A DNA stretch of 20,642 nt from a virus. This document shows, piece by piece, positions 4,874 through 15,748 of the stretch. The notes under the pieces are model-generated. The model searched no databases and was not told the origin of the DNA. It saw only the letters and a list, made by a program, of their open reading frames with translations. The DNA lies in the IMG/VR virus record IMGVR_UViG_3300042295_000929, positions 1 through 20,642 of that record; one strand, 5' to 3'. The translations under genes and the position numbers were made by a program. Numbering within the stretch: position 1 is the first letter of the stretch; the number at the start of each line of letters is the position of its first letter.

Positions 4874-4978
4874 ATGACTAGTAAACAAAAAAACACAAAA
4901 AAAGAGCAAGAGAATGCTTTGTTATCCCTTGCTCTTATTATTCTTTTGTTGCTTGCTTGCCTTGCTGATAACCTTTAA
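4874..4978 (+). CDS. Small hydrophobic (membrane) peptide, 34 aa
   Basis: A short frame from ATG 4874 to TAA 4976-4978 starts 5 bp after the preceding gene's stop. The peptide has a basic, polar head (MTSKQKNTKKEQE) and one hydrophobic span of about 17 residues (LLSLALIILLLLACLADN). This is the layout of a single-pass small membrane protein; the LLACL segment also loosely resembles a lipobox. The same DNA in another frame gives an apparently hydrophobic 32-residue extension of the next gene, and I regard that extension as the shadow. Function unknown; a holin, toxin-like or leader-peptide role cannot be told apart from sequence. Confidence 0.45.
   Translation: MTSKQKNTKKEQENALLSLALIILLLLACLADNL
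4902..4936 (+). promoter_or_regulatory. Hairpin inside the 34-aa peptide frame
   Basis: A perfect 9-bp inverted repeat, AAGAGCAAG (4902-4910) and CTTGCTCTT (4928-4936), encloses a 17-base loop. It is preceded by an A-rich run and followed by a T-rich stretch (ATTATTCTTTTG). It could attenuate or terminate transcription between the first gene and the GP88-like gene. It may equally be a by-product of the codons for KEQE and SLAL. Confidence 0.35.
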
Positions 4979-5009
4979 ATCATTTTATAACTACCTTAAA
5001 CTAAAAATC

Positions 5010-5723
5010 ATGATTAACAAAAACATCACTTTCAAAGTTCCCGCTAATTTACTTTCAGACGGTTTGACTAACGCTAAAACAAAGAAAAATAACGTTACAT
5101 CTTTCATTTTATACCTTGCTCCGGCTAATGAATCAGGAATAGTAAACGTTTGTCCATTTTCTTCAGATGGTTGCAAATCTGCATGCCTATACAAGGCCGG
5201 CCGTGGTAAATTTTCCAATGTTCAACTTTCTAGGATAAACAGAACAAAATTTTGGGCAGCTGATAGGCAATTGTTTTACACTAAATTAGGAAATGAGCTT
5301 TTAATGATAGCAGCAACCTATAAAAAAGCTGCAGTTAGACTGAACGGTACTTCTGATATTGATCACCTAGATCTGTTAAAACGATATACCGGTATAGATT
5401 TTTTGGCTAAAAAGTATAAAAACATAAAGTTTTACGATTATACTAAAAACATTAATATGGTTAAAAAGTATGCCGGTTCAAATTATCATTTAACATTTTC
5501 AAAATCAGAAACAAATGATAAACAAGTTTTGGAAGCTTTAAATTTTGGCGCAAATGTAGCAGCTGTTTTTAGCCATACTTTGCCGGAAACATACCTAGGC
5601 TATAAAGTTGTTGACGGTGATCTGACAGACTACAGGCCTGAAGACGGAAAAAACGTAATTGTTGGCCTTATTGCTAAGGGCCCAGCTAAAAAAGACAAAT
5701 CTGGTTTCGTTATTCAAAATTGA
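5010..5723 (+). CDS. GP88-like / DUF7227-type protein with Cys cluster
   Basis: A 237-residue protein from ATG 5010. Near the N-terminus lies a cysteine cluster C48-P-x5-C55-x3-C59, followed nine residues later by FSNV (68-71). Further on come VRLNGTSDID and an 'IKFYDYTKN..MVKK' segment. The cysteine spacing, the FSNV and the FYxYTK block match the minus-strand GP88-family protein at 15080-15748, so I consider the two distant homologs. From memory the type is the one Pfam calls DUF7227, found mainly in phages; its biochemical role is unknown. The cysteines suggest a bound metal or FeS cluster. A start at 4914 would add a hydrophobic 32-residue head, but that stretch overlaps a separate peptide gene. 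A strong terminator begins 19 bp after the stop. Confidence 0.75.
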   Translation: MINKNITFKVPANLLSDGLTNAKTKKNNVTSFILYLAPANESGIVNVCPFSSDGCKSACLYKAGRGKFSNVQLSRINRTKFWAADRQLFYTKLGNELLMIAATYKKAAVRLNGTSDIDHLDLLKRYTGIDFLAKKYKNIKFYDYTKNINMVKKYAGSNYHLTFSKSETNDKQVLEALNFGANVAAVFSHTLPETYLGYKVVDGDLTDYRPEDGKNVIVGLIAKGPAKKDKSGFVIQN

Positions 5724-6716: not shown

Positions 6717-9089
6717 TTTTCCGAACTTTTTCATGGAAAAATCCTTCTTTTCAAACCCGTTTTCTGACAAAAAATCGTTGTATAAAGTCTCTAGTTTGAC
6801 CGGCAAATTCTTCTCCTCAGATGCCGTCAACATGAACTCTAAAAACTCCTCTCCGTACATTACTCTGATCTGCTTTTTGGCTAATTTGTCGGAGTTTTCC
6901 ATCTTCAAAATGCCCACCTCTAGGTACTCATTCACGCAATAAAACATAAAATTATAGAACCTGTTCCACTCATCCTTATCCCAATCTTCAAATAATTTAT
7001 GTCCAAATTCATCCTCTGGCGTGTGCTTGACCCCAAAAAATGGTGCGAATTCCAAGACCCTTTGCCGCCTTTTGGCATGATTTCCGTTATTTGGGATGGT
7101 GTAATTTGTGGTGAACATGATCTTTGGCGAGTCCTTATAAGGGATAAAAAACTCATCTTGGTTCTTTTTTTCTACCGTAACCCCTTCAGTGATTATCGGG
7201 TAAAATGACTCAAAATCAACATTTTTCCTAGTGTCTTCAATGGCTATAATCTTGGTGTCGATGTCCACCCGCTGAAATGCAAAACTCTTATCGCTCTTAA
7301 AATTCTTGCCATCTAAGCGCACCACCTGCATCAAATATGACAAAGCCTTCACAAAAATTCCCTTACCCGTGCCGCCACCATTGGCCTCATTTTCCGTCTC
7401 TTCGGCTAATATAATAGCGAATGGCTTACCAGGGTCTTTGTACTTATGCAGCAAATACCCCATCAGTGTGATGCAATAAGCTATCCGCTCCTCATCATCT
7501 CCATTAATACGCCTTATAAATTTATAATATTCTATCTCCATTGGCTGCACCCCTTGATCAACCACTATTTCATGGTCAATAAGCTGAGATTGCCAGATGC
7601 TTCGGCCTAGCTCTCCGTAGCTTTTTAATGCAATTCCCGCCTTTGTTACCTCAACTATGCCATTTTTAAACGGGAAAAATGCCTTGCCTGCCTCATCACG
7701 CAAGAAATTAAGGTCAGCACGATTAAAGAACTCAAAAAACCCATCATTGAACAGGCTTGCGCTGCTGCGATATATCAATTCAAGCAGGTCGGCAGGACTT
7801 ACCCCGCCATCGAACTCATCAGGAAGCGAGTCGATGTAGCCTTTAATCTCTTTTTTTATCTGCTCAGTGCTGCTGTCATGGGCGATGCCTCCGGTGTGCC
7901 TAATCAGCCTATAATTGATACCATTATCATAAAAATACAAGAGAAATTCCTTCTCTACTGACAAAAATATCTGGAGCTTATACCTATTTATAGATATACG
8001 CCCTTTTGAGTCCACATCCCAGAAGGTGGTGAGATTTTTTTTTTCAGTCACCGACACTACCAGCTCCGCTGCATCTGCCAAAGGCATCCCATACTTCTTA
8101 ACCAATTCAGCGGTGATCTCATCTCCACTATACCCCTCCTCCGCCATTTTCCTAACCTCCTTGGTAGACCTCTCCACCACCACATTCCTCCGCTCTCCAA
8201 ATCCTAAGTCAAGCAGCTCTTTGGCTGCCCGACTAAAATCCCCTCCGCATTTTAGGATTGCAAAAACAATAGCAGGCTTGTAACCTTTACCGATGAGAAA
8301 CGGGGTGTTGGTGCTGAATACACTAAACAACCCCATGCTTTTATTATACGAGCCGCTGTGCTTACTAGTGCCGCCTGGGCGCAAATAATAATCCCGCTCG
8401 CTATTCCCCCCAACAAATTTCCATCCGCACTCCTCAAATAGGTTGCGGACATCACCATTTTTGTTATAGGCATCAAATGGCGATGCACCATAATCCTTAA
8501 CACTCGGCCTGTCATGTGCCTCTATTAGCTGCTCCACCACTATGCTGTTAAATGACCGCATGACTTCAATTAAATGTTCCCGTTCTTCTAAGGTCACCAC
8601 ACTAAGTCCCTTTTGCACAACCGTGTACCCCTCCGTTGGCGGAGCCACCACATACCCACCCTCACCCCGTGTCTCTATTATGCAATATGTCTTCACAACA
8701 GGGTTGGCTTTTAGCTCGGCTTCAGTGGCTGGCCTTTCCGCTAACTTTTGGTTACCCTCAATGTATTCGCATCGAAAAAGTAAGTGGTAGCCACCACTTT
8801 TTGTGCGGACAATGTGCAGCTTCGCCCAGATATCAGGGTTGACAAGCTCTTTTATCTCAGAGTACAGGTCAAAGTCGGCATATTTTGTGTCAACATCAAT
8901 GACTTCAAGGTTGCCACTCACCGCTCCGCATATTATTGCGACTCCTTTGGCCCTTTTATCCGACATTTGCACCCGCAAATCATGCTCCGTAATCATCTCG
9001 CTTTGGTAACGCTTCCAAGGGAATATGGCGGTCTTGTTTTCGCTTACAGCGATGATATTGACACCAGCTTTAAGGTATTTTTCGTACAT
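6624..9089 (-). CDS. Bifunctional primase-polymerase / D5-like replicative helicase
   Basis: An 821-residue fusion. The N-terminal archaeo-eukaryotic primase (prim-pol) domain has the AGVNIIAVSENK opening, the metal-binding pair EVIDVD (D65, D67), SGGYHLLF with H102, and an ETRGEGGYVVAPP block. The C-terminal part is an SF3/D5-type helicase: Walker A GGGTGKG near residue 571, KIIAIEDT near 613 as Walker B, and a KIMFTTNY sensor region, preceded by a D5_N-like zone. It would prime and unwind phage DNA. I chose ATG 9089, 4 bp after the upstream stop and right at the start of the prim-pol fold. ATG 9131 and a TTG at 9164 are longer alternatives that overlap the upstream gene. The 3' end runs into the putative origin region. 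Confidence 0.93.
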   Translation of the reverse strand: MYEKYLKAGVNIIAVSENKTAIFPWKRYQSEMITEHDLRVQMSDKRAKGVAIICGAVSGNLEVIDVDTKYADFDLYSEIKELVNPDIWAKLHIVRTKSGGYHLLFRCEYIEGNQKLAERPATEAELKANPVVKTYCIIETRGEGGYVVAPPTEGYTVVQKGLSVVTLEEREHLIEVMRSFNSIVVEQLIEAHDRPSVKDYGASPFDAYNKNGDVRNLFEECGWKFVGGNSERDYYLRPGGTSKHSGSYNKSMGLFSVFSTNTPFLIGKGYKPAIVFAILKCGGDFSRAAKELLDLGFGERRNVVVERSTKEVRKMAEEGYSGDEITAELVKKYGMPLADAAELVVSVTEKKNLTTFWDVDSKGRISINRYKLQIFLSVEKEFLLYFYDNGINYRLIRHTGGIAHDSSTEQIKKEIKGYIDSLPDEFDGGVSPADLLELIYRSSASLFNDGFFEFFNRADLNFLRDEAGKAFFPFKNGIVEVTKAGIALKSYGELGRSIWQSQLIDHEIVVDQGVQPMEIEYYKFIRRINGDDEERIAYCITLMGYLLHKYKDPGKPFAIILAEETENEANGGGTGKGIFVKALSYLMQVVRLDGKNFKSDKSFAFQRVDIDTKIIAIEDTRKNVDFESFYPIITEGVTVEKKNQDEFFIPYKDSPKIMFTTNYTIPNNGNHAKRRQRVLEFAPFFGVKHTPEDEFGHKLFEDWDKDEWNRFYNFMFYCVNEYLEVGILKMENSDKLAKKQIRVMYGEEFLEFMLTASEEKNLPVKLETLYNDFLSENGFEKKDFSMKKFGKGALDFLENLKISGAVEKKRVHGNKKTIVFW

Positions 9090-12398: not shown

Positions 12399-12722
12399 TT
12401 AATCCAGTGCTACTGGATAGTAAAATGAGGCATAATTTATCTCCATACTCGCCTTCTTCTTAGTCGTGTAACAAGCCTTACACTTGTGAACATAACCGTC
12501 TTTTGTTGACCTACTCCTTGGGAATGCGCCATATTCCTTCATCTCACCGCACCCTGCACATTGTTTCTGCCCTTCCTTATGAGGTCTTTTTGGCTTGGCT
12601 TTGGCATTTCTGTCTACACGCTGACATTGCTTACATTGTGAATTGTACCCACCTTTAAAATAGGCTTTTACGCAGAAATCAGTCAACGGCTTATCTTTTT
12701 TACACTTTGTGCAGGTTTTCAT
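12399..12722 (-). CDS. Zinc-binding protein with two Cys4 modules
   Basis: A 107-residue basic protein from ATG 12722 (ATG 12731 is three codons longer). It contains two similar Cys4 modules: CTKC...CKQC and CAGC...CKAC, each with a pattern CxxC-K/G...L/Y-x-x-F...K-x-G-Y...C-K-x-C. The modules are separated by a Lys/Arg/Pro-rich linker (AKPKRPHKEG). Such modules occur in phage homing endonuclease/endonuclease VII-like and other nucleic acid-binding proteins, but the downstream catalytic HNH residues are not present here. DNA or RNA binding is the likely role. The start overlaps the methyltransferase end by 23 bp. Confidence 0.7.
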   Translation of the reverse strand: MKTCTKCKKDKPLTDFCVKAYFKGGYNSQCKQCQRVDRNAKAKPKRPHKEGQKQCAGCGEMKEYGAFPRSRSTKDGYVHKCKACYTTKKKASMEINYASFYYPVALD

Positions 12723-13224
12723 ATTGTTCAATCGTTTTAAAAATTTGGTAAACTACTTGCGGAACTATTGCGTTTCCAAAAGCTTTTATGCTTTCTTTTC
12801 TCCATTTAGAAAAGGTAATAGAGTCCAATCGGTCGGGAATCCCATCATCTTTTCTGCAAACGATGTTTTCAAGTGATATGTTGAAACTCCATTTGGTGTT
12901 AAATCTGCTGCCATTTGTCTTAATGTCATTTGCAGGATTACTGATTTTTTTTGATGTTTCATCTTCCTTTTTTGGTAAGTCATGGGCTTTGTACCTGTAT
13001 TCCAATCCATTGCATTTGGAGTGGGCAACAAACCAAACTCTGTCCCTTCTGTGTGGAGCGTTGACGGATACAGCTGGAAGAACATACGGTTGTACTTCGT
13101 ACCCTTCAGCTTCCAAGTCAGCTTGCACCTCGTGGAAAACCAACCCTCCTGACCAATTAACAAGTCCGAGAACGTTTTCGCCCACAACCCAACGTGGGGA
13201 AATTTCTTTAATTGCTCTAAGCAT
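12700..13224 (-). CDS. DNA cytosine-5 methyltransferase, C-terminal fragment (after in-frame stop)
   Basis: This frame carries the C-terminal two thirds of a phage C5-cytosine methyltransferase: VVGENVLGL (motif VI ENV), APHRRDRVWFVA (motif VIII) and FGNAIVPQ (motif X). It is in the same frame as the N-terminal fragment at 13294-13545. The homologous reading continues upstream of ATG 13224, without a start codon, to the PCQPYSSAGKRLG motif IV (catalytic Cys codon at 13288-13290), and is cut by TAA 13294-13296. Translated separately from 13224 the protein would lack the catalytic cysteine. It would make a full 280-residue enzyme only by readthrough of the stop. Most of it is also covered by another open frame. 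Confidence 0.75.
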   Translation of the reverse strand: MLRAIKEISPRWVVGENVLGLVNWSGGLVFHEVQADLEAEGYEVQPYVLPAVSVNAPHRRDRVWFVAHSKCNGLEYRYKAHDLPKKEDETSKKISNPANDIKTNGSRFNTKWSFNISLENIVCRKDDGIPDRLDSITFSKWRKESIKAFGNAIVPQVVYQIFKTIEQYENLHKV

Positions 13225-13325
13225 TTCCGGCCAGAGGTGTCTCTCATCTTCTTTGCCAAGTCGTTTTCCTGCTGAGGAGTATGGTTGGCATGGTTAAGGG
13301 AAGCCTCCAGTGAGAACAATGTCAT
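12786..13325 (-). CDS. Overlapping-frame protein embedded in the methyltransferase gene
   Basis: On the same strand as the methyltransferase but in another frame, an uninterrupted reading frame runs 179 codons from ATG 13325 (192 from ATG 13364). It contains MTLFSLEAS, RCKLTWKLKGTKYNRM, FQLYPSTLHTEGTEFGLLPTP and, at the C-terminus, EKMMGFPTDWTLLPF. From memory these segments match proteins annotated in phages and Bacteroidetes as hypothetical or 'DNA methylase' ('MTLFS..AS', 'LLPTP', 'MMGFP..WT'). The frame spans the 6-bp insertion that stops the methyltransferase without being harmed, gaining only two codons. Database resemblance could be a mere reflection of conserved methyltransferase codons. 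Whether it is translated is open. Confidence 0.45.
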   Translation of the reverse strand: MTLFSLEASLNHANHTPQQENDLAKKMRDTSGRKCLEQLKKFPHVGLWAKTFSDLLIGQEGWFSTRCKLTWKLKGTKYNRMFFQLYPSTLHTEGTEFGLLPTPNAMDWNTGTKPMTYQKRKMKHQKKSVILQMTLRQMAADLTPNGVSTYHLKTSFAEKMMGFPTDWTLLPFLNGEKKA

Positions 13326-13545
13326 TTGTCCTCCAGAGGCTTCCGAATCTTTTTTGTAGTTCATAATCTAATTTGTCTATTGTTAATGTTTTGATATCAT
13401 CGTGATGATATGCTTTGGGCCAGTAATGCTCTAAGATTTTCCTGCCAAATGGGTTTAATTCACAAGATGCAATGTTTTGCCATCCCATCCATTCAGCAGC
13501 TAACTCAAAGCCTCCTATACCACTAAATAGGCTTATATGCTTCAT
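13294..13545 (-). CDS. DNA cytosine-5 methyltransferase, N-terminal fragment ending at an in-frame TAA
   Basis: From ATG 13545 this encodes 83 residues with the S-adenosylmethionine-binding motif I SLFSGIGGFELAAEW near the start, ASCELNPFGRKILEHYWP (motif II region), HHDDIKT (motif III) and the beginning of motif IV, DIVLTGGFP. The next codon is TAA (13294-13296). After it the same frame resumes with PCQPYS, whereas family members read GGFPCQPYS directly. The gene therefore seems to carry a 6-bp insertion (CCTTAA or an equivalent cut) right before the catalytic Pro-Cys. The start overlaps the upstream stop as ATGA, which supports ATG 13545 over the codon at 13554. Alone the fragment could bind SAM at best. 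Confidence 0.78.
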   Translation of the reverse strand: MKHISLFSGIGGFELAAEWMGWQNIASCELNPFGRKILEHYWPKAYHHDDIKTLTIDKLDYELQKRFGSLWRTNDIVLTGGFP

Positions 13546-13757
13546 AATTGACACGCTTTAATGTATTCTTCCCTCTGATAGTGGAACTCAATCAGCTGCC
13601 ACCTGCAACCATAGGTGTCGAGTAATGCCTCCCAAACCTCTTCCCAATAGGCTTTGTCTTCAGAGTGCTGATGCAGGAGGCAGATAGCACCCTCCGCTGC
13701 GTTGAATGACAGATTCATATATATGTAAATCTGTTCGGCTTTGTTTTTTGGTGTCAT
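13542..13757 (-). CDS. Hypothetical 71-aa protein
   Basis: From ATG 13757 the protein begins MTPKNKAEQIYIYMNLSF, the 'MTPKxKAxxL/IY' opening of a class of small helical proteins frequent in Bacteroidetes phages. It continues with a Trp-rich segment (YWEEVWEALLDTYGCRWQLIEFHYQREEY). The function is unknown. A longer start at 13778 exists, but ATG 13757 overlaps the upstream zinc-ribbon stop as ATGA, and its own stop overlaps the methyltransferase start the same way. The gene therefore sits between two coupled junctions. Confidence 0.75.
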   Translation of the reverse strand: MTPKNKAEQIYIYMNLSFNAAEGAICLLHQHSEDKAYWEEVWEALLDTYGCRWQLIEFHYQREEYIKACQL

Positions 13758-15079: not shown

Positions 15080-15748
15080 TTAGTTCTGATTATAATTACT
15101 AAAGTTTTTACCTTTCATTTTTTTAATAAAATGTGGTATATTATTTCTGTATAAACCTATTTTATGGTTCTGGCTTGTAGCCGCTAACTTATCGTCCTCC
15201 TCTATATCAATATACCCTTGTGCAATCATTTCATCATAATTGCTAAATACATCACTATGCCTATCGGTTTCTTTGTCAATTAGGTTGTCTTGCCTACCGC
15301 CATAAGAGTATATAGCGGTAAAATTATCCGGTATGTCTGTATGCTCTTTTACTAATTTAACCTCTTTAGTATAGGCGTAGAAGTTTACTGTCGGGTTGTT
15401 CCTGCAAATGGTTAACCAATCGTTGAAATAATCAGCCGAAAAGAAATCACCGGCATCATGTATTCTTATATGCTTACCGACATATTTACTTTTGCTTAAT
15501 TCGGTATTCATCATTTCAATCCACTTTTCTCTATTAAATAAAACAAGTTCTAACTTTTCAATATGCGATTTTTTGACATTGCTGAAATTGTAAGTACCAT
15601 TTTTAGCATAACAAAATCCTGCACATATTCCTGCATTCGGGCAAGTGTTAAAATTGCTTCCATTGTTTAGCTTAACAATATGAGCCGGCAATGTCCATGA
15701 GTATATGCCGGTCTTTTTTAAGTCGCTGTTCTGTGTTAGTAAATTCAT
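15080..15748 (-). CDS. GP88-family (Gene 88) protein
   Basis: A 222-residue member of the phage GP88 family. Diagnostic segments are YSWTLPAH (16-23), the cysteine cluster C36-PNAGI-C42-AGF-C46 followed by YNFSNV (53-58), RIHDAGDFFSADYFNDW (95-111) and NFYAYTKEV (122-130). The protein is cytosolic with no signal. The family is widespread in phages and its activity is unknown; three closely spaced cysteines suggest a metal site. A diverged copy with the same landmarks lies on the plus strand at 5010-5723. It follows an attenuator-like terminator and starts the long downstream operon. Confidence 0.9.
   Translation of the reverse strand: MNLLTQNSDLKKTGIYSWTLPAHIVKLNNGSNFNTCPNAGICAGFCYAKNGTYNFSNVKKSHIEKLELVLFNREKWIEMMNTELSKSKYVGKHIRIHDAGDFFSADYFNDWLTICRNNPTVNFYAYTKEVKLVKEHTDIPDNFTAIYSYGGRQDNLIDKETDRHSDVFSNYDEMIAQGYIDIEEDDKLAATSQNHKIGLYRNNIPHFIKKMKGKNFSNYNQN

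Follow-up and report, generated by a model that had tools for sequence, protein, structure and literature searches.

The window analyzed here is the whole of a 20,642-nucleotide viral contig from a tailed phage; genes for terminase, portal, and primase are present. Homologs of Gene-product-88 (PF17338) occur on it twice, separately and on opposite strands, at 4914-5723 (+) and 15080-15748 (-). On the minus strand, a C5-cytosine methyltransferase (C5-MTase, or alpha) frame runs from 13545 to 12700, with Pfam PF00145 matched in both halves and motifs I, IV (PCQ), VIII, and X present; a profile built from uninterrupted MTase relatives matched HhaI at 1e-35. The frame is broken by a TAA at 13296-13294, part of a 6-nt insert (TAA CCA) that lies between GGFP and the catalytic CQPY, and this stop-containing insert interrupts motif IV in the DNA. 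Overlapping the gene in its +1 frame is a second open reading frame, from 13364 to 12786, of 192 aa, or of 179 aa from an internal ATG at 13325 that is preceded by GGAGG (Table 1).

Table 1. Features of the methyltransferase locus, in window coordinates
Feature	Position	Strand	Basis or remark
MTase (alpha) N-terminal part, motifs I-III to GGFP, ending at the in-frame TAA	13294..13545	-	PF00145, E 9.6e-7; ORF list; alternative GTG start at 13554 possible
RNA stem-loop with GGAAGCCTCTGGAGGACA as its 5' arm; the last base of the 3' arm is the first C of the take-off codon	13299..13344	-	MFE -27.6 kcal/mol, z -4.5; compensatory changes
Proposed take-off codon CCT (Pro of GGFP)	13297..13299	-	CCN in all elements
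Stop codon TAA adjoining the take-off codon	13294..13296	-	Always TAA, TGA, or TAG in relatives
Proposed landing codon CCA	13291..13293	-	YYN in 48/48
MTase (alpha) C-terminal part, catalytic Cys codon TGC (13290-13288) to motif X and stop	12700..13290	-	PF00145, E 3.6e-27; selection tests
Beta-like protein in the overlapping +1 frame, 179 aa if started at the ATG that follows GGAGG; frame open from 13364; C-terminal motif FAEKMMGFPTDWT	12786..13325	-	PHROG 1008 family

The sequence-only reading had suggested that this overlapping frame of 179-192 codons encodes a second protein and that its product resembles separately annotated phage proteins, and both suggestions held up. A tblastn search with the product yielded homologs at 27-88% identity in the same +1 register, in 33 IMG/VR contigs (32-88%) and 66 phage records (27-39% among the matches listed); wherever the register was checked, it was always +1 of a C5-MTase. 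All 26 overlapping-frame products tested matched PHROG 1008, none of the 26 matched a Pfam model, and the record of phage Lily contains a member of the same family, LILY_63, annotated as "g62 internal gene." Identity to the window moves in step for the two products, at 62, 77, and 44% for the overlapping protein versus 63, 74, and 55% for the MTase.

Codon shuffles revealed that both frames are kept open. When the MTase codons of the locus were shuffled synonymously, 2.7 +1-frame stops were expected between the Cys codon and the end of the open reading frame, and about 1% of the shuffles were stop-free. The +1 frame was likewise open beyond chance in about 70 relatives, a result that takes in genes not selected for having that frame: 3 to 4 +1 stops were expected, stop-free shuffles made up less than 3% in most genes, and the real +1 frames stay open for a median of ~200 codons past the Cys codon, coming to a stop ~20-30 codons ahead of the MTase end. 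Also, in the same gene pairs, MTase third positions diverge less within the overlap (0.386-0.404) than in the stretch upstream (0.517-0.537). On the evidence of its homologs and of the codon shuffles, the overlapping frame is a real, conserved second protein.

Searches of Pfam and the PDB with an alignment of this protein returned nothing meaningful, and its predicted structure (pLDDT 47.5) is too poor to show its fold. By eye, its C-terminal MMGFP..WT resembles motif IX of C5-MTases, a likeness with no matching profile or structure. The small subunit of M.EcoHK31I, described by Lee and colleagues in 1995, is reportedly nested in the gene for the large subunit in another frame. The large subunit of that enzyme contains motifs I-VIII and X, and motif IX resides in the smaller polypeptide (PMC3404938). 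From the resemblance of MMGFP..WT to motif IX, and from the place of motif IX in the smaller polypeptide of M.EcoHK31I, we infer a beta-type subunit of the MTase (here beta) in the overlapping protein, which probably supplies the part missing from alpha, the motif IX region, as the M.EcoHK31I small subunit does. The two systems are also alike in having a second protein nested in an MTase gene in another frame, and here that protein is conserved and selected in the relatives studied. The likeness is one of layout and motif, and a stop or hairpin element is not known in M.EcoHK31I.

Phage and plasmid C5-MTases of Bacteroidota, Firmicutes, and cyanobacterial phages (L002-L040 and L118-L221, e.g., L217, L218, and L220) very commonly carry an overprint in the +1 frame, among them genes without the stop-hairpin element described below; the open +1 frame extends for a median of ~200-264 codons past the catalytic Cys. 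The Paenibacillus phage "internal genes," such as LILY_63, share with the window the PHROG 1008 family and the same +1 register in a C5-MTase, but the records inspected are without the element, and their annotation is silent on the nature of these genes as overprinted partners. In L221 (Bacteroides finegoldii plasmid NZ_OY725930.1), two in-frame MTase stops lie upstream of an uninterrupted motif IV and the overlapping frame is open; this MTase, which is missing from the gene table of the plasmid, may be a decaying gene.

The stop in the window is not an isolated case. Its closest relative, L001, has the same stop, and a scan for GGFP-stop-x-CQP found ~20 viral contigs, some with TAA and some with TGA, whose MTase frame has no other break on either side. 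A recurrent element of the form GGFP-CCN-stop-YYN-TGC, where TGC encodes the catalytic Cys, is common to ~50 distinct MTase sequences from viruses. In unbiased scans, which left both inserted codons free, 6-nt inserts were present in 42 distinct real MTases; the first codon was always TAA, TGA, or TAG and never a sense codon, and the second was always YYN. Although scans for TRR allowed TGG at the stop position, it was never seen there. A variable-gap scan additionally found 7-nt inserts (TGAA-YYN, which change the frame) and 9-nt inserts (e.g., TAATGA-YYN), with YYN adjoining TGC in each; that the insert always begins with a stop is an unbiased result for the 6-nt class only, the 7- and 9-nt classes having come from a scan that required TRR. 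Gaps of 3, 4, and 6 nt all seat YYN directly before the Cys codon, and where 4-nt gaps shift the frame (L107 and L117), the MTase goes on in the new frame. Two consecutive stops occur in four of the six distinct inserts with 6-nt gaps.

For comparative work, 48 non-redundant element-bearing genes were set against 52 genes without the element. The proposed landing codons of the 48 were CTA (14), CCA (10), TCA (7), CTG (7), CCT (4), TCG (2), CCG (2), CTT (1), and CCC (1). Take-off codons were CCG in 25, CCT in 12, and CCA in 11, with CCC in none, compared with CCC in 12 of the 52 element-free genes. On the MTase tree, the insert was gained or lost at least 8 times, of which 5 are forced by supported branches, and one supported clade contains all three gap lengths. 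Within element-bearing genes, the stop type changed 12 times, the gap length 7 times, and the landing dinucleotide 21 times.

These scans used exact patterns on GGFP-CQP[YF]xxAG, which miss other forms, and the contigs are metagenomic, with near-copies among them. Run also on 84,980 bacterial and archaeal genomes, the unbiased scans gave two real matches. With gaps of as much as 30 nt beyond the stop allowed, this motif showed lengths of 3, 4, and 6 nt only; longer-gap matches were uninterrupted genes with a chance TTCCC upstream. A search for the same insert in GGPP-type MTases gave no matches. The element was not found among isolates in the GenBank phage records inspected, motif IV was uninterrupted in the annotated phage and plasmid records inspected, and no description of the element appeared in the literature searched. 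Sequencing error is ruled out by the recurrence of the element across many independent contigs, and an altered genetic code is ruled out by the fact that all three stop codons end genes in element-bearing contigs (240/198/86).

Past the stop, the MTase frame is under strong purifying selection. Downstream differences at codon positions 1, 2, and 3 were 0.265, 0.173, and 0.404 in genes with the element and 0.231, 0.141, and 0.386 in genes without it, a pattern that is the mark of a translated frame; under selection on the overlapping frame alone, MTase position 1 would be expected to change fastest. When the codons of the overlapping frame were shuffled, a mean of 8.5 downstream MTase-frame stops per gene was predicted, versus 0 seen. 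The catalytic Cys never varies; for the conserved Ser that follows CQP[YF], 29 element-bearing genes use TCN and 19 use AGY. A pseudogene is ruled out by the codon-position differences together with the absence of MTase-frame stops. The sequence-only reading had proposed a test for selection in both frames, as well as a homolog search, and the slower third positions inside the overlap and the working-gene pattern kept by the MTase frame provide evidence of selection on both.

The stop comes with an RNA hairpin of its own. Folding of the 81 nt that precede the stop gave a mean z of -4.5 in the 48 element-bearing genes, versus +0.33 and +0.41 in two element-free sets (codon shuffles), and no RNA structure was detected 3' of the stop (mean z ~0). 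The 3' arm mostly ends 2 nt before the stop, which is base 1 of CCN, and the 5' arm begins 27-61 nt before the stop, varying by lineage. A perfect (9/9) upstream complement to the 9 nt ending at that base is present in 34 of 48 genes with the element and in 0 of 52 without it; weak hairpins only are found at element loci L074, L077, L091, L101, and L105. Base pairs of different types replace one another (G-C/C-G at pair 5; A-U/G-C/U-A at pair 8), cells with both sides changed number 12 versus 3.9 after shuffling, and the covariation score of 0.200 (0.076 when shuffled) was reached in 0 of 500 shuffles, with the signal lost upon a slide of one column. A strict covariation of the first Gly codon with the take-off codon, judged by eye, was not consistent, and the longer hairpin supersedes it.

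Codon usage in the motif bears the imprint of this structure. Because the 3' arm of the hairpin lies there, element-bearing genes favor TTC for the Phe of GGFP (48/48) and GGC or GGG for the second Gly (45/48), versus 36/52 for TTC in genes without the element, where the second Gly is GGA in 23/52 and GGT in 10/52. A census covered 167,448 stop codons in 1.8 Mb of DNA, gathered partly for the motif and so informative on specificity rather than frequency, and a perfect 9-nt hairpin that ends 2 nt before a stop splitting two frames of at least 60 codons turned up in 36 cases, 34 of them at this site. In the window, the ATG of beta lies in the hairpin loop and its GGAGG in the 5' arm. Judged by comparison among relatives, the stop is conserved together with YYN and the hairpin as a single unit, and both frames are selected. 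The insertion had been read from the sequence alone as the loss of one product of an overprinted pair. The recurrence of the stop insert in ~50 distinct viral MTases, the codon-position pattern of the MTase frame beyond it, and the hairpin that goes with the stop argue instead that the MTase is most likely still made, by recoding.

We propose that programmed translational bypassing, or a "stop-hop," lets alpha be made across the in-frame stop, and we place the probability of this reading at roughly three in four. In the hop that we infer, a ribosome would reach CCN (the Pro codon of GGFP) with the stop codon in its A site, and the stem-loop from the just-translated mRNA would zip up behind it and pull the mRNA out. 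The peptidyl-tRNA-Pro would then detach, skip the gap (3 nt in the window, 4 or 6 nt in relatives), and re-pair with YYN through G-C or G.U pairs to its NGG anticodon, after which translation would restart at TGC to yield an uninterrupted GGFP-CQPY. With G-C or G.U pairs allowed, YYN suits both G's in the anticodon of any tRNA-Pro. A stop next to the take-off codon, a pairable landing codon (48/48, many via G.U) adjoining the resume codon, and an upstream stem-loop behind the ribosome make bypassing the best explanation, and the coding sequences on both sides are selected as one protein, as is expected of bypassing of the T4 type. The N-terminal MTase sequence is conserved anyway, irrespective of any nascent-peptide signal. 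Against bypassing, the landing codon often matches the take-off codon through G.U pairs only (CTN in 22 and TCN in 9 of 48), the double stops in 6-nt gaps would suit strict termination too, and the hairpin holds the start region of beta in most loci and so could serve beta translation; the five loci with weak hairpins and the lack of isolates with the element in the GenBank phage records inspected also count against it. Terminating ribosomes would sit beside the beta start codon in the hairpin loop, and the element may set the alpha:beta ratio too; such control is not its sole role, because in L092 and L107 the element sits where the beta frame is not open.

True termination would leave alpha truncated at GGFP and MTase activity lost, with the stop and hairpin only controlling beta through translational coupling or attenuation. 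This reading draws support from the double stops and from the position of the beta start, which lies in the loop ~25 nt upstream of the stop and has its ribosome-binding site in the 5' arm, but we consider it unlikely: the downstream MTase frame is selected as a working gene, the element is present in the two loci just named, and beta control has no need for YYN before the Cys codon. Readthrough, by which the stop would be decoded and alpha would gain two (or three) residues in its catalytic loop (GGFP-X-[P/L/S]-CQ), is quite unlikely in our estimation. A stop followed by C is a context often linked to readthrough, and C usually comes right after the stop here; moreover, 3-nt and 6-nt gaps stay in frame. 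The 4-nt gaps of L107 and L117, however, are unreadable in the zero frame that readthrough requires, and double stops would have to be passed, whereas a hop from CCN to YYN would give GGFP-CQPY whatever the gap length. The residue before the catalytic Cys would become Leu in 22/48 and Ser in 9/48 genes, yet it is Pro in 52/52 element-free genes; all three stop codons are in use; and the hairpin lies upstream of the stop, where it is not known as a usual signal for readthrough.

An alternative at the DNA level is that the hairpin and short insert mark a site of nicking, of recombination, or of resistance to a homing endonuclease where the gene is most conserved, the stop being incidental. The hairpin would form in single-stranded DNA too, the insert has been repeatedly gained and lost, and the T4 bypass segment is part of a mobile cassette. 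As a full account this is very unlikely, for it leaves unexplained why every case has YYN and an in-frame stop, why the sequence varies at the presumed point of cleavage, and why coding is kept on both sides; nevertheless, a DNA-level role may exist alongside bypassing and be what selects for the insert. Least probable of all, in our judgment, is +1 programmed frameshifting at CCN-stop, as in RF2, which would carry translation from the alpha N terminus into either the overlapping frame or the C-terminal part. Pro codons before a stop are prone to +1 slips, and in the two loci with 4-nt gaps such a slip would lead into the frame of the C-terminal MTase part. But CCC, the best +1 slip codon, is the one that element-bearing genes lack at take-off, CCA and CCG would re-pair poorly at CAT and CGT, and the MTase frame would not be restored in the 3-nt and 6-nt classes.

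Bypassing as proposed here has a counterpart in T4 gene 60, where a stop follows the take-off codon, the landing codon is matched, and a 5' stem-loop is thought to pull the mRNA by zipping up (PMC5009743, PMC11194080). Both systems are in phage genes, and in both, the stop adjoins the take-off codon, a matching landing codon precedes the resume codon, and a stem-loop lies behind the ribosome. Unlike in T4, where the gap is ~47 nt, the gap here is 3-6 nt, the landing is G.U tolerant (YYN), the hairpin abuts the take-off codon, and the element occurs in many lineages and in a different gene, one that overlaps a second. Synthetic stop-hops function in E. coli (PMC5009743) and likewise have a codon-stop-codon arrangement in which nine nucleotides yield one amino acid, as CCN-stop-YYN would here, but they are laboratory-made reporters. 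As of a 2016 review, no in-frame stop-hop was known from nature (PMC5009743), and none was found in the literature searched.

More broadly, we think it reasonably likely that the elements represent a natural, widespread class of minimal bypassing elements (upstream hairpin plus CCN, stop, and YYN) at the catalytic motif of overprinted viral C5-MTases, with ribosomes hopping one or two stops and being split between the MTase and its nested partner. If so, they would be the first natural family of in-frame stop-hops. Knowledge of programmed bypassing has so far come essentially from T4 gene 60 and yeast mitochondria, and ~50 distinct natural elements that vary in stop, gap, landing codon, and hairpin arms would provide a comparative data set on how ribosomes release and regain mRNA. 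The work also brings to light a very common overprinted gene pair in phages and carries a warning that stop-bearing genes of this kind can pass for pseudogenes.

An extra zinc-ribbon/HNH-like segment (IQAHHxDYxxPLxVxWLCxxCHHEWHK) separates motif III from motif IV, a short way upstream of the element, in the MTases of L077, L088, L090, L091, L096, L101, L105, L107, L116, and L117. In L117, at ~7939-7960, the sequence CCATGAATCATGCC of this 4-nt-gap element offers an overlapping-frame ATG start that overlaps the stop codon TGA.
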